64,000 bases of DNA from Cellulomonas shaoxiangyii (GTDB lineage Bacteria; Actinomycetota; Actinomycetes; Actinomycetales; Cellulomonadaceae), in contig NZ_CP039291.1 in NCBI RefSeq assembly GCF_004798685.1, forward strand, positions 310,001-374,000, in the 5' to 3' direction. Position 1 is the stretch's first letter. Every line of letters starts with the position of its first letter. The notes under the pieces were generated by a model. That model was not told the origin of the DNA. It was given only the letters and a program-made list of their open reading frames with translations, and did no database searches. The position numbers and the translations under genes were made by a program. Of this stretch, positions 52,402 to 57,229 are shown piece after piece.

Positions 52402-52866
52402 TCAGCTGCAGTTGTCGCAGACGCCCGTCCCGGGCAGCACCTGGTTGCACGTCGGGCAGATCGCGGGCGGGCGCTCCTCCCGGGTGGGGGTGCGCGTGCT
52501 CGTCGCCGTGGTGCGCGGTGCGCGGGGGGTCGTCGCGCGCTTGCGTGCGGGCTTCGCCGCCGGCGCGGCCACCGCAGCGGGGGCCGGCTCGGGCTCGACG
52601 ACCTCGAAGCCGCGCTTGCGCAGGATCGCGACGGCCCCGGCCATGCCGTTGCTGAACTCCTCCGACGTGGCCAGCCGCCCGGTCGCGTAGCGGTGCGCGA
52701 CGCCGAGGATCGCCTTCGAGTCGTAGGTGCGGCCCTCGTGCACGATCGGCAGCTCGCCGGTGGGCTCGAACCCGTACAGCGCGAGGAACTCGTCACCGCC
52801 GCGCGCGTCGAACTCCTCGATCGCCTTGAGGATGTGCTGCTGGGTCACGGAGGAGAACGTCGCCAT
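52402..52866 (-). CDS. ScoMcrA-like N-terminal head domain protein with zinc ribbon
   Basis: A 154-residue protein. Residues 1-92 match the N-terminal head domain of ScoMcrA, a Streptomyces type IV restriction enzyme for modified DNA: VTQQHILKAIEEFDARGGDEFL, then HEGRTYDSKAILGVAHRYATG and a closing MAGAVAILRKRGFEVV. A 40-residue Ala/Pro/Lys/Arg/Thr linker, likely DNA-binding, leads to a zinc ribbon CPTC...CDNC (about 137-153). The sulfur-recognition and HNH nuclease domains of ScoMcrA are absent. It may be a DNA-binding accessory or reader; no restriction partner is adjacent. Start ATG 52866 has TAGGCT eight bases upstream and GGAG close by. Confidence 0.72.
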   Translation of the reverse strand: MATFSSVTQQHILKAIEEFDARGGDEFLALYGFEPTGELPIVHEGRTYDSKAILGVAHRYATGRLATSEEFSNGMAGAVAILRKRGFEVVEPEPAPAAVAAPAAKPARKRATTPRAPRTTATSTRTPTREERPPAICPTCNQVLPGTGVCDNCS

Positions 52867-52961: not shown

Positions 52962-53579
52962 TCAGTCGCCGCCGACGCCGTCGAGGACGTTGGTGACGAG
53001 GGCCGTGATGAAGTCGTCGGTGACCGGCTCGTCGGGGATGAGCATGCGGTGGTAGGCCGCGCCCCACAGCTGGTCGATGACGACCCGGACGTCGACGTCG
53101 GGACGGATCTGGCCGACCTGCTGGGCGCGTGCGAGCCGTTCGCCGGCCAGGCGGCGCCGTTCGGAGGAGTAGAGGCTCCGGTAGGCCGACGCCAGGTCGG
53201 CGTCGGTCTGGGACTGGCCGATGAGCTCGGTCAGGACCTTGCCGCCCGGGGTCCGGGTCATGATCCGGGACCAGGCCCGCAGCTGGCTGGTCAGGTCGGC
53301 GCGGATGTCGCCGGTGTCGGCGAACGCCAGGGGCTCCTCGACGGCGTGGAAGTACCCGTCCAGCGCCAGGGCGCCCTTGGACGGCCACCACTTGTACAGC
53401 GTGGTCTTGCTCACCCCGGCCAGTCGTGCGACCCGTTCGAACGTCAGGTCCGCGCTGCCCTCGGTCAGCAGGAGGTGCCCGACGGTCTCGAGGACGTCGG
53501 AGCGGACCTCCTCGGCGGGCCGGCGACCTCGACCCCGACGCGCGGGAGGCGCATCGGGTGGGCGGTGCTCACTGGTCAC
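52962..53579 (-). CDS. TetR family regulator of the SDR operon
   Basis: A 205-residue repressor. The Arg-rich N-terminal arm (RRGRGRRPAEEVRSDVL) leads into the helix-turn-helix LTFERVARLAGVSKTTLYKWWPSKGALALD at residues about 45-74. The C-terminal ligand-binding and dimer domain is of the TetR_C_11-like actinobacterial type. It is the last gene of a three-gene minus-strand run behind two SDR genes, 125 bp after the second, with SD GGAG before GTG 53579. The twin palindromes at the operon promoter are its probable operators, giving autoregulation with an unknown, perhaps carbonyl, inducer. Confidence 0.85.
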   Translation of the reverse strand: MTSEHRPPDAPPARRGRGRRPAEEVRSDVLETVGHLLLTEGSADLTFERVARLAGVSKTTLYKWWPSKGALALDGYFHAVEEPLAFADTGDIRADLTSQLRAWSRIMTRTPGGKVLTELIGQSQTDADLASAYRSLYSSERRRLAGERLARAQQVGQIRPDVDVRVVIDQLWGAAYHRMLIPDEPVTDDFITALVTNVLDGVGGD

Positions 53580-53704
53580 GGTTCTCCTGGGTCGACGGCG
53601 GGGCCTGGGGCCACTGTACGAACCGGGACGTGCGCGCTCGGCCGCCGCGCGGTGGCGGCGGGCCGCCCGCACCGCGAGCTCCCGTGGTGCGGGCGGCCGG
53701 TGGG

Positions 53705-54604
53705 TCAGCGGGCGGCGGGGAGCAGGTCCGCGAGGTCCACGCGCGCGAGGAACTCGCGCCGGACGCGGTCCGCGACCTCGGAGACCTCCCGCGAGCCGTC
53801 GTCGATGGGGTCGACGTGGACGCGGAACGGACGCGTCCCGGCGGGCAGGGCGACGATGCGGGCGATCTCGTCGGACACCATGGACGCGTCGGCGTCGGCG
53901 GGGGACAGGGCGGCCAGCTTCTCGGCGACCTGGTCCATGAGGCCCGGGTACCGGGTCTCGTACGCGGCCTCGACCTCGCGGTCGACCGGCGTGCCGCTGT
54001 GGGCGAAGTGGTTCGTGCCGCGGGTGAAGGACCCGGGCACGACGATCGAGGTCTCCACGCCCCAGCGCGCCAGCTCGGCGGAGTAGCTGACGGCCAGGGA
54101 GTCCATGGCGGCCTTGGCGGCGAAGTACGGGGCCAGGTACGGCGGCGTCCCGCCCTTGACGCTGGAGCTGGAGACCCACACGAGCAGGCCGGCGCCGCGC
54201 TCGCGCATCGCGGGCAGGGCGGCGCGGTTGACCCGCTGGGTCGACAGCACGTTGACGTCGTACAGCTCGGCCAGCTGCTCGGGGGTGAAGGCCTCCGCCG
54301 GGCCGACGACCATGTGGCCGGCGTTGTGGACCAGCACGTCGATGCGGCCGTGCTCGGCCAGGACCTGCGCGACGGCGGCGTCGACGGACGGCTGCGAGCT
54401 GACGTCCAGCTCGAGGGCGCGCAGGTCCACGGAGTGCTCGGCGGCGTAGTCGGCGGCGTCCCGGACCTGCGGGGCGTTGCGCCCCTCCGTGTCCCGCATG
54501 CCGGCGTAGACGGTGCCGCCACCACGCGCCAGGGCGCGCGCGGTGAGGGCACCGAACCCGCTCGACGCGCCGGTGATCAGGACGATCTGCTGCTGTGTGC
54601 TCAT
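53705..54604 (-). CDS. SDR family oxidoreductase (first of TetR operon pair)
   Basis: A 299-residue NADP-dependent short-chain reductase. The cofactor site is TGASSGFG at 11-18, followed by VHNAGHMVVGPAEAF near 97-111. The catalytic Ser lies in WVSSSSVKGG and the Tyr-Lys pair is YFAAKAAMDS near 163. The tail EVSEVADRVRREFLARVDLADLL is longer than in classical SDRs. The TGXXXGFG variant and tail resemble actinobacterial aldehyde or ketone reductases. Its start ATG 54604 has only a weak ribosome site, and a nine-base-arm hairpin sits just before it. Confidence 0.85.
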   Translation of the reverse strand: MSTQQQIVLITGASSGFGALTARALARGGGTVYAGMRDTEGRNAPQVRDAADYAAEHSVDLRALELDVSSQPSVDAAVAQVLAEHGRIDVLVHNAGHMVVGPAEAFTPEQLAELYDVNVLSTQRVNRAALPAMRERGAGLLVWVSSSSVKGGTPPYLAPYFAAKAAMDSLAVSYSAELARWGVETSIVVPGSFTRGTNHFAHSGTPVDREVEAAYETRYPGLMDQVAEKLAALSPADADASMVSDEIARIVALPAGTRPFRVHVDPIDDGSREVSEVADRVRREFLARVDLADLLPAAR

Positions 54605-54631
54605 GATCTGCTCGCTCTCACGATCGGGGTG

Positions 54632-54654
54632 GGGTCCCACGGGCGGTGGGACCC
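54632..54654 (-). terminator. hairpin between the two SDR genes
   Basis: GGGTCCCAC at 54632-54640 and GTGGGACCC at 54646-54654 are exact inverted arms with a five-base loop, inside a same-direction gap of 93 bp. It may attenuate the distal genes or protect the upstream mRNA; a regulatory operator is the alternative. Confidence 0.55.
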
Positions 54655-54697
54655 GAGGCGCGGCGTGCGGCACCGCGGACCGTGTGCACGGCGTCGG

Positions 54698-55441
54698 TCA
54701 GGCGAGACCGCCGTTGGTGAACAGCACCTGGCCGTTGACCCAGCGCCCGGGGCCCGCGAGGAAGGCGACGACCTCGGCGACGTCGTCCGGCTGTCCGAGG
54801 CGCTCCAGCGGGACGACCGTGGCGAAGTGCGCGACGGTCGCCTCGTCCTTGCCGTCGAGGAAGAGCGGCGTCGCGACGGGACCGGGGGCGACGGCGTTGA
54901 CCGTGACGTCCTTGCCGCGCAGCTCGCGGGCGAGGACCAGGGTCATGCCCTCCACGGCCGCCTTGCTGGCGGCGTAGGGCCCGTAGGTGGGCAGCTGGCC
55001 ACGGGTCTGGCTGGTGGAGAAGTTGATCAGCGCGCCGCCGGGCCGCAGCCGGTTCGCCGCGAGCTGGGAGACGACGAACGTGCCGCGGATGTTCGTGCGG
55101 TGCATGCGGTCGAGCGCGTCGAGGTCGAACGTGGCGATCGGCCCCAGGGTCATCGTCCCGGCCGTGTTGACCACCACGTCGACCCCGCCGAGCTCGGCCT
55201 CCACGGCGTCGAACGCGGCGGCCATCGCGTGCTCGTCGGCGACGTCCCCGCCGACCGTGATCGCCCGGCCTCCCACCGCGGTGACCGCGGCGGCGACGTC
55301 CTGCGCCCGGGCCGGGTTGCCGGCGTAGTGGATCGCGACTGCGATCCCGTCGTGGGCCAGCCGCTCGACGACACGGCTGCCGATGCCACCCGAGCCGCCG
55401 GTGACGAGCGCGACGCGGGTGCTGGTGGGTGTGGTGCTCAT
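54698..55441 (-). CDS. SDR family oxidoreductase (second of pair, promoter-proximal)
   Basis: A 247-residue classical SDR. The cofactor site is TGGSGGIGSRVVERL at 15-29, VNTAGTM replaces the usual NNAG near 87, the catalytic Ser is in NFSTSQTRG near 140, and YAASKAAVEGMTL near 153 holds the Tyr-Lys pair. The closing GRWVNGQVLFTNGGLA is typical of FabG-like 3-oxoacyl or polyol reductases. It is first in the operon with SD GGAGGG before ATG 55441. Substrate unknown; the TetR regulator suggests induction by a xenobiotic or aldehyde. Confidence 0.87.
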   Translation of the reverse strand: MSTTPTSTRVALVTGGSGGIGSRVVERLAHDGIAVAIHYAGNPARAQDVAAAVTAVGGRAITVGGDVADEHAMAAAFDAVEAELGGVDVVVNTAGTMTLGPIATFDLDALDRMHRTNIRGTFVVSQLAANRLRPGGALINFSTSQTRGQLPTYGPYAASKAAVEGMTLVLARELRGKDVTVNAVAPGPVATPLFLDGKDEATVAHFATVVPLERLGQPDDVAEVVAFLAGPGRWVNGQVLFTNGGLA

Positions 55442-55477
55442 GAGGCCCTCCGGGGGATCGATCGACCACGCCCTTAG

Positions 55478-55749: not shown

Positions 55750-55827
55750 GTGCGCATCGGTGACGTGGCTGCCGCGGCGGGGCGCGCCACCCGCTATCGG
55801 AGCCGCTTCAGCGGTATCGCCGAGTGA
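55750..55827 (+). pseudogene. truncated MerR family regulator remnant
   Basis: Behind a strong GAGGAGGAG (55736-55744), GTG 55750 starts MRIGDVAAAAGRATRYRSRF, which keeps the first helix and turn of a MerR DNA-binding domain (MRIGDVAAAAGVSTRTLRYYE in intact relatives). It breaks off after about 17 codons and stops at codon 26. The dimerisation and effector regions are missing. Promoter, operator and ribosome site look intact, so loss of the body is recent or the breakpoint is an insertion boundary. Confidence 0.6.
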
Positions 55828-56146
55828 ACGACGAAGGCCCGGGATCTGCACTGCGCTGCCGCAGGCCACGGGCCCTTCGACCGGCGGGGATGGGGGACTT
55901 CGAACCGCCGAAGGCTTGTCGTTGACAGGTCAGACGTGCACTCGAGCGTGTTTCCGCGCCCACAAGGCCCCAGTTGACCGCAGTTCCCCGGGGCTCGGTG
56001 TTCCCGTGGGACAGGGCGCACGATCGACGAGGGCACACGCCGCGAGGGCGTACGTGCACGAGTCGACGCCGGCGGGTTGGGCTGTCGCCCTGCGCGCCTC
56101 GGAGTGCGTCCGTCGTGCAGGTGGACGCCGCACCGAGGCGCTCCCG
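55828..56146. other. non-coding stretch with tRNA-terminator-like hairpin
   Basis: No gene is supported here; open frames lack ribosome sites and normal codon use. It contains a bulged hairpin CGAAGGCCCG/CGGGCCCTTCG (about 55832-55879) directly before the tRNA-end copy, in the same place as the hairpin that follows the real tRNA-Ser. Near 56000-56020, GGTGTTCCC-N4-GACA recurs in similar form near 56893-56910. Confidence 0.4.
55883..55919 (-). repeat. degenerate copy of the tRNA-Ser(GGA) 3' end (possible attachment site)
   Basis: Aligned with 56960-56995, about 33 of 37 positions agree, including GGATGGGGGA, TTCGAAC and GGCTTG. The differences are two single-base indels and two or three substitutions, which break the T-stem. 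It is a direct repeat of the tRNA end 1.08 kb away, as left by tRNA-targeted integration. Confidence 0.6.
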
Positions 56147-56794
56147 TTACGCGCTATCCGCGGTCGTCACTTGCCCCGCTGTGTCGAGTACTCGAATCCA
56201 ATCGAGCAGTTCACGCCCGAAGTCGGTGAGGAGCTGGCGACGGTACGTGGGGGTGAAGATCGCTGCCACGTTGAGTGGGGCGACTCCTGCGCAGCCGACT
56301 TGAAACAGGGTCGCGCGGACAGCCGTCGGCTCGGCGGCCCACGCAGCACGTAGGCGCGATTCTACGTTCTGGGCGTCGGAGGGGAGGGCGTCCAGAACCC
56401 GGCGCAGACGCTCAAGGGCGCGGAGGTGCGGGGCATCCAGATGGGTAAGCGCCTGCACGTAGAGCTGCGACTCGTCCACCTTGGCGTCGTCGAGGACAGC
56501 CGCGGCGACGACCTGCGCAAGCAAAGCGCGCTTCGCATTCACGCCGGTCCGTACGGCCGCCTCCGCTGCGCGGATAAAAGTTGACTCGAGTATCGGATCG
56601 TCGGTCAGACGCTGCCCGAGCCGCTCAACCCCGGTGCGCTCGACAACATGCTCGGCGTACTCCGCTGCCCTCGCTCGATCCCTGGCATGGGCTTGCTCGA
56701 GCAGGACCGCAAACGAGCCACCAATTCCAGGTAACAGGTTCACGGCGGCGAGCTGCAGGACCTCTGGCCATGGCTTGATGCCGTCGTTGCCCAC
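56147..56794 (-). CDS. orphan protein of unknown function in tRNA-Ser island
   Basis: I do not recognise this 215-residue protein. It is mostly helical and soluble apart from one hydrophobic stretch (VLQLAAVNLLPGIGGSFAVLL, residues about 11-33). Mid-protein RAAEAAVRTGVNAKRALLAQVVAAAVLDDAKVDES resembles the helical repeats of some phage-defence or stress proteins, but that is only an impression. Codon 21 is TTA, and CCT, ATT, GGA and ATA codons are frequent, unlike neighbouring genes. GTG 56794 is chosen over the upstream frame because TACGGT lies six bases before it. It lies between the tRNA gene and the copy of its 3' end. Confidence 0.65.
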   Translation of the reverse strand: MGNDGIKPWPEVLQLAAVNLLPGIGGSFAVLLEQAHARDRARAAEYAEHVVERTGVERLGQRLTDDPILESTFIRAAEAAVRTGVNAKRALLAQVVAAAVLDDAKVDESQLYVQALTHLDAPHLRALERLRRVLDALPSDAQNVESRLRAAWAAEPTAVRATLFQVGCAGVAPLNVAAIFTPTYRRQLLTDFGRELLDWIRVLDTAGQVTTADSA

Positions 56795-56800
56795 GATGCC

Positions 56801-56806
56801 ACCGTA
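56801..56806 (-). promoter_or_regulatory. TACGGT -10 box of the orphan gene
   Basis: Minus-strand TACGGT, six bases before GTG 56794: the foreign-looking gene uses the host's leaderless signal. Confidence 0.55.
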
Positions 56807-56961
56807 GCGACGGACAGCGGGGTCGAGCAGCAAGTCGTACTCCTGAACCGCCCCGGGGTTCAAAGGAGTGGTGTGCCACGTGCTTGCCGGGGTGTTCCCA
56901 CAGGACAAGCGAACGAGGGCGGTTCACCGCGATTGCGCGGGCGAACCGCCCCTCGTGTCGG

Positions 56962-57046
56962 CGGAGGATGGGGGATTCGAACCCCCGAGGGCTTGCACCC
57001 AACACGCTTTCCAAGCGTGCGCCATAGGCCACTAGGCGAATCCTCC
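56962..57046 (-). tRNA. tRNA-Ser(GGA)
   Basis: An 85-nt serine tRNA on the minus strand. The acceptor is GGAGGAT/ATCCTCC with discriminator G at 56962. The anticodon stem CACGC/GCGTG encloses TTGGAAA, with anticodon GGA at 57012-57010. There is a variable arm of normal serine type and a T-arm GGGGGTTCGAATCCCCC. CCA is not encoded. A GGGCGGTTC/GAACCGCCC hairpin follows its 3' end (about 56926-56951). Its 3' end is duplicated at 55883. Confidence 0.97.
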
Positions 57047-57229
57047 TGGCCGCGGCAGCCGGTCGGGACCGACGAGCCGCGCGGAGAGTCTAGCCGAGCC
57101 GACGGCCCGTCCGTACCGCCCCGGACGCGGCACCGGGCCCCGGCGCGTTCGCGTCACCGCGGCCGGCCCTCGCGCGCTGTCGGTCCGGCGTGGTGGGGTG
57201 GCCGCGTGGCGAGGGGTCTCGCGGGGAGC

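Follow-up and report, generated by a model that had tools for sequence, protein, structure and literature searches.

Two kinds of described system come closest to the locus analysed here, a 1.08 kb insert behind the tRNA-Ser(GGA) gene of Cellulomonas shaoxiangyii, located in a 64,000-nt stretch of contig NZ_CP039291.1 (positions 310,001 to 374,000; hereafter the window, to whose first nucleotide all coordinates refer). In tRNA islands of the Islander type, as outlined in the part of PMC4383910 drawn on here, a regenerated target gene and a displaced fragment of it mark the ends, and an integrase is demanded within the island. Cis-mobilizable elements (CIMEs), according to the corresponding part of PMC5704250, have lost their integration and transfer genes, have kept attL and attR, and are described as decayed integrative and conjugative elements or integrative and mobilizable elements. 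Two defence proteins or systems are also relevant: Abi-alpha (DUF4393, PF14337), presented in the relevant excerpt of PMC6356687 as a prophage-borne abortive infection protein of Enterococcus faecalis, and PDC-M05, whose antiviral role is still to be confirmed according to the excerpt of PMC12988326 that concerns it.

The window insert resembles Islander-type islands in its regenerated tRNA gene and displaced fragment, and differs from them in having no integrase and a length of only 1.08 kb. With CIMEs it shares the lack of integrase and transfer genes and a position at a tRNA 3' end, and its two attachment ends are recognisable, though with a decayed core; its parent may or may not have been conjugative, and no adjoining element able to carry the relic along was found. 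We put at roughly 80% the explanation as a whole, namely that the site is occupied, that the occupant is an integrase-less relic of an element of the type present in another Cellulomonas genome (G014), and that its one gene has been kept as an accessory anti-phage gene.

An occupied tRNA-Ser(GGA) site

The intact tRNA-Ser(GGA), which is the attachment target, lies at 56960..57046 on the minus strand (ARAGORN; Rfam tRNA, E 3.5e-10). A slightly decayed copy of its 3' end, the distal att core, is found on the same strand at 55883..55918, where it aligns to tRNA positions 52-87 with 33 of 37 columns identical, two mismatches and two single-base gaps, the two indels falling within about 26 nt. Its local score of 50 compares with a maximum of 33 among 100 first-order Markov sequences (64 kb, both strands); with tRNA and repeat masked, the best score elsewhere in the window is 24 on the same strand and 30 on the other. 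These values bear out the direct repeat of the tRNA 3' end, 1.08 kb from the intact gene and enclosing a single gene, that a first-pass annotation made from the sequence alone had described.

The state of the site in relatives was read from the tRNA-Ser(GGA) regions of 77 other genomes of the genus (designated Gnnn, the window genome of 3.9 Mb being G000 and the window G000:C1:310001-374000). These yielded 78 loci, G034 having two; G046, G054 and G064, with no full-length tRNA match, were left out of the count, and two loci end at the tRNA, leaving 76 readable. A native terminator (CGAAGGGCCCG.. / ..CGGGCCCTTCG) directly follows the tRNA in 55 of them, an element end with a paired GGGAACAC repeat in three (G007, G014 and G042), and something else, under the strict terminator pattern, in the remaining 18. 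Because the flanks taken behind the 55 native-terminator tRNAs measure 2-14 kb, larger islands can be missed among these loci; a displaced 3' copy is also present in seven of them (G006, G027, G030 with 19 nt only, G032, G066, G069 and G077).

In the window, what stands behind the intact tRNA is not the native terminator but another hairpin. The native terminator is displaced together with the old 3' end of the tRNA: a partly decayed, folding copy at 55831..55881 (minus strand) starts with GGTCGAAGGGCCC, which is the exact start behind the tRNA in seven relatives, and GAAGGGCCC occurs no more than 24 nt past the displaced repeat and is absent behind the intact tRNA. The empty site for which the first-pass annotation had proposed to look is represented by these native-terminator loci and most directly by G011, G029 and G065, where the AAA gene upstream in the window and one downstream gene flank a tRNA with native terminator, and where no cargo homologue was found at the tRNA locus. 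G039 has three downstream neighbour genes in common with the window, its terminator being classed as "other" under the strict pattern. No other of 81 genomes carries the cargo gene at this locus, so that a gene and spacing common to all close relatives, named beforehand as evidence to the contrary, was not encountered. The tRNA-Ser(GGA) site in the window is occupied.

Element ends and the parent family

At the same tRNA, G014 contains a 30 kb element; its tyrosine integrase of 434 aa (PF00589, E 1.5e-15) starts 100 nt behind the tRNA. Both ends of the window insert resemble the ends of this element. The tRNA-side end (56873..56959, minus strand) comprises a hairpin and the GGGAACAC repeat; its 87 nt are 81% identical to G014 (L049:9225-9311), and the similarity stops about where the start codon of the G014 integrase would be. 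At the distal side, 55880-56011, repeat included, is 71% identical over 146 columns (73% in a second comparison) to the opposite end of the G014 element, some 30 kb further on. Since this identity takes in the tRNA repeat, the ends were scored again without it. For the tRNA-side end the score is then 88, with 29 as the highest of 500 random pairs; for the distal end outside the repeat (55919..56011, minus strand, with AACTGCGGTCAACTG and GGAAACACGCTC) the local score is 54, with 32 as the highest. Neither value was reached by any of the 500 pairs; both window ends are thus related to G014 on their own. The hairpin now behind the tRNA is terminator-like and element-borne (56913..56956, minus strand; -35.1 kcal/mol for a 64-nt stretch), and hairpins of the same kind stand behind the tRNA in G014, G007 and G042. 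We infer that the 3' end of the intact tRNA came from the element; the GGGAACAC repeats and the AACTG/GTCAAC stretches are probably arm sites of the integrase.

Similarity to the other two genomes is weaker. On the tRNA side the window scores 27 against G007 and 25 against G042, reached by 2 and 3 of 500 random pairs respectively, and its distal end scores 27 against that of G042 (4/500). The distal ends of G007 and G042 match each other with a score of 65, and those of G042 and G014 with 47 (0/500 random pairs in each case); through these strong matches the window, G014, G007 and G042 form one loose family. In G007 the displaced core lies 1.55 kb from the tRNA and is followed by a non-native hairpin, the island having no integrase. 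In G042, 77 integrase residues match, other genes follow, and the far end is on another contig. A 21.6 kb island in G025 (L069, L123) matches the G014 element at its far end and in interior parts and differs at its tRNA-side end; no PF00589 match was found inside it.

Probable loss of the integrase

None of the four PF00589 matches of G000 lies inside the window island, and tblastn with the G014 integrase finds nothing in the 1.08 kb, which contain one open reading frame (ORF) with homologues. At a strict E<=1e-60 a G014-type integrase is absent from G000 and present in one of 118 genomes, G014 itself. Among the 11 island-bearing genomes listed, a PF00589 match lies within the tRNA-Ser(GGA) island in G014, G027, G066, G069 and G077 and not in G000, G006, G007, G025, G032 or G042, the G042 island being split over contigs and partly readable and PF00589 being the one recombinase type searched for.

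The displaced terminator and the match of both ends to G014 show that the site is occupied and argue for the loss of the integrase, which leaves a CIME-like relic. The first-pass annotation had read the insert as the remains of a minimal integrative element that had lost its integrase and kept its cargo. The relic, the loss of the integrase and the intact gene all stand; on one point the reading changes, in that the source, with the ends of a 30 kb element, was probably larger than minimal. In the history that we propose, a G014-type tyrosine integrase would have inserted an element at the T-loop/acceptor end of the tRNA, whereby the tRNA acquired another 3' end and terminator, and an internal deletion would then have taken out the integrase. 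The relic would now be immobile in G000, given that no cognate integrase was found and that the att core has two indels. Selection may be keeping the cargo as an accessory anti-phage gene: its 215-codon reading frame has stayed open and alignable while two indels arose in the displaced tRNA end.

The cargo gene and its protein

The cargo gene (56147..56794, minus strand, the direction of the tRNA) encodes 215 aa from a GTG start at 56794 to a stop codon that ends at 56147, and homologues align from about that start. The unusual codon usage pointed out earlier is evident: the TTA at codon 21 is the sole TTA in 19,722 codons of 46 heuristically picked ORFs, and the G+C content at third codon positions is 0.74, against 0.89 and 0.96 in the next two downstream genes. 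Read by eye, the end of a TACGGT hexamer lies 6 nt before the GTG; a scan of 55800-57100 for the sigma-70 consensus returned no promoter. A leaderless transcript, as the first-pass annotation had claimed, is plausible. Just past the stop codon a hairpin at 56094..56141 (minus strand), seen by folding and not reported by the consensus scan, is a possible terminator with no T run.

The AlphaFold2 model of the protein is all-helical (mean pLDDT 89.9, pTM 0.84). A homology search returned eight proteins, including the window's own cluster P0001 (two members on two contigs), and a profile search 43, both searches scoring only the candidates with most words in common. The closest relative found has 48% identity (52% over half of the query in the profile search). 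A 46-row alignment (A3) shows near-invariant KRR, AVLDDAxVD and PHxR stretches. Across the 46 relatives the best PADLOC match is GajB, with E 0.0054 in one member, and no solved-structure or viral relative was found in the searches made. The family is related to a second unnamed family, A5, whose seed is a Candidatus Planktophila protein (hhalign, 98.1%; the A5 seed had itself been found with A3). The cargo family is an undescribed one, with circumstantial links to defence. As a first guess, the protein might be an Abi-like single-protein effector with a helical body and a C-terminal winged-helix-like end.

Homologues occur in 7 of 81 genomes of the genus (E<=0.001); of 394 genomes drawn from the class, four have one at E<=1e-5, counting that of the window. 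In several genomes the gene keeps the company of recombinases or defence genes, the setting in which the first-pass annotation had suggested looking for relatives: PDC-S06 (3.1e-117) and Mrr_cat lie within 2 kb in G018, Abi_2 (5e-07) about 0.5 kb away in G053, and in G065 a large serine recombinase about 1.2 kb off and a Fic gene about 1.7 kb on the other side. The G020 homologue (L063, G020:C18, 9609-11454) stands directly downstream of tRNA-Leu(CAA), and ParB- and DUF932-type genes follow at a greater distance; relatives match 0 to 53 nt past the tRNA-Leu, and the locus is perhaps a second tRNA-anchored island, whose far end was looked for and not found. The G073 homologue (L156, G073:C407, 3400-10032) lies among a DUF3644 gene, an adenylosuccinate-synthetase-like/AAA protein and an ORF that by eye looks like MazG, a group that may resemble nucleotide-modification clusters. 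On a Rhodococcus plasmid, a homologue of 35% identity is located behind annotated phage head genes.

Defence-type modules at tRNA-Ser(GGA)

Ten other islands are listed at tRNA-Ser(GGA). In five of them, selected ORFs were compared with PADLOC (two in G007, one in G027, three in G032, four in G066 and two in G077), G006, G014, G025, G042 and G069 lying outside the scan. In four of the five, defence-type matches span most of a protein: a nucleotidyltransferase/HEPN pair in G007 (PDC-M05A 1.8e-51, PDC-M05B 6.2e-13), PDC-M05A/B in G066, IetA (2.8e-143) and IetS (8e-293) in G032, and NsnA (4.3e-59) in G077; the G027 matches are partial and RecD-like. The PDC-M05 island of G007 is, like the window island, short and integrase-less, uses the same tRNA and carries a defence candidate; its cargo and distal end differ.

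Two observations concern the DNA beyond the island. At 52402-52866 the window encodes a small protein whose PADLOC match (8.8e-17) is to the N-terminal part of a type IV methyl-directed restriction enzyme; relatives of this protein lie near tRNA-Ser(GGA) in several genomes. Between the island and the downstream genes common to relatives, a TetR-like gene and two SDR genes occupy 52962-55460; the sole SDR match near the tRNA in relatives (E<=1e-15) is one of 32% in G027.

Discussion

Several results weigh against the explanation favoured here. The distal end of the window matches that of G007 at chance level (score 17, reached by 248/500 random pairs). The cargo protein has no family match in Pfam, NCBIfam or PADLOC, the last at E<=10. 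Abi-alpha was considered as its identity and rejected on the tests made: PF14337 matches are sub-threshold in 2 of 46 members (best E 0.0038), and profile comparison with the cargo family gives 2.4% by hhalign. The Abi-alpha profile was built from 15 of 16 fetched matches, L142 being left out as its long reading frame looked wrong; in the related family one of 17 members matches, with E 0.059. The two proteins are alike in being single small accessory proteins on mobile DNA and, by eye, in a similar helical part and a C-terminal 'LTxFG' end, and unlike in that neither hidden Markov model nor profile comparison gives a family-level match. The G014 homologue has as its neighbour only a weak PDC-S32 match (4.8e-4); it is 106 kb away from the G014 element, which means that no intact element of this family was seen with the cargo inside. 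Finally, 3 of 10 window genes taken as a PADLOC control match at E<=1e-5 (two ATPases, one an ABC ATPase, up to 2.9e-26, and one restriction-enzyme-like N-terminus), and tRNA-Ser(GGA), which looks defence-rich in the chosen ORFs of five of ten islands, is a possible defence hot spot of Cellulomonas. The missing direct match to G007 and the small PADLOC sample are balanced by the repeat-free match to G014.

The anti-phage role that we infer for the cargo may be questioned on its own: the gene could instead have served the stability, regulation or immunity of the lost element, for example in superinfection or maintenance. We regard this as a possible but somewhat unlikely origin of the gene, as its homologues in G018 and G053 stand near defence-type genes, although no search for element backbones around them was made, and its retention after the loss of the element suggests a benefit to the host.

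That the insert is instead a non-autonomous cassette, still moved by an integrase acting in trans, is possible but unlikely. Both element ends are retained, the G014 integrase is a possible helper within the genus, and in G007 there is another short island that lacks an integrase and carries a different single module, the distal end of which is tied to the family through G042. The absence of a cognate integrase from G000 speaks against such movement, as do the two indels and two mismatches of the att core, the lack of a close cargo relative as a sign of recent movement (48% at best, or 52% over half of the query), and the lack of direct similarity between the distal ends of the window and G007. 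A broader version, in which the 1-2 kb islands of the window and G007 would be one-module defence cassettes with attachment ends, exchanged in trans by G014-type integrases, and the window cargo a new anti-phage family, seems improbable to us.

A decayed tandem tRNA-Ser gene beside an ordinary chromosomal gene would account for a same-strand repeat of tRNA sequence close by, but is almost certainly not the explanation, as the similarity begins only at tRNA position 52, covering the T-arm/acceptor 3' part without the D-arm and anticodon parts, no Rfam tRNA match is found at the repeat (E<=0.1), the adjoining sequence is related to the far end of an integrated element, and G011, G029 and G065 have no displaced copy behind the tRNA within the flanks taken.

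A relic of a G014-type element remains our preferred reading. As such the insert is an ordinary kind of island, well supported, and the cargo family is the interesting part. The window island is a cleanly bounded and very short relic of an integrative element whose likely parent family is known. Integrase-less islands of this kind escape mapping methods that require an integrase, such as Islander in the part of its description cited above (PMC4383910). The relic also draws attention to tRNA-Ser(GGA) as a site in Cellulomonas at which defence modules may be gathering, and its cargo family, with 46 aligned sequences and a confident helical model, supplies a small candidate for a new defence gene.
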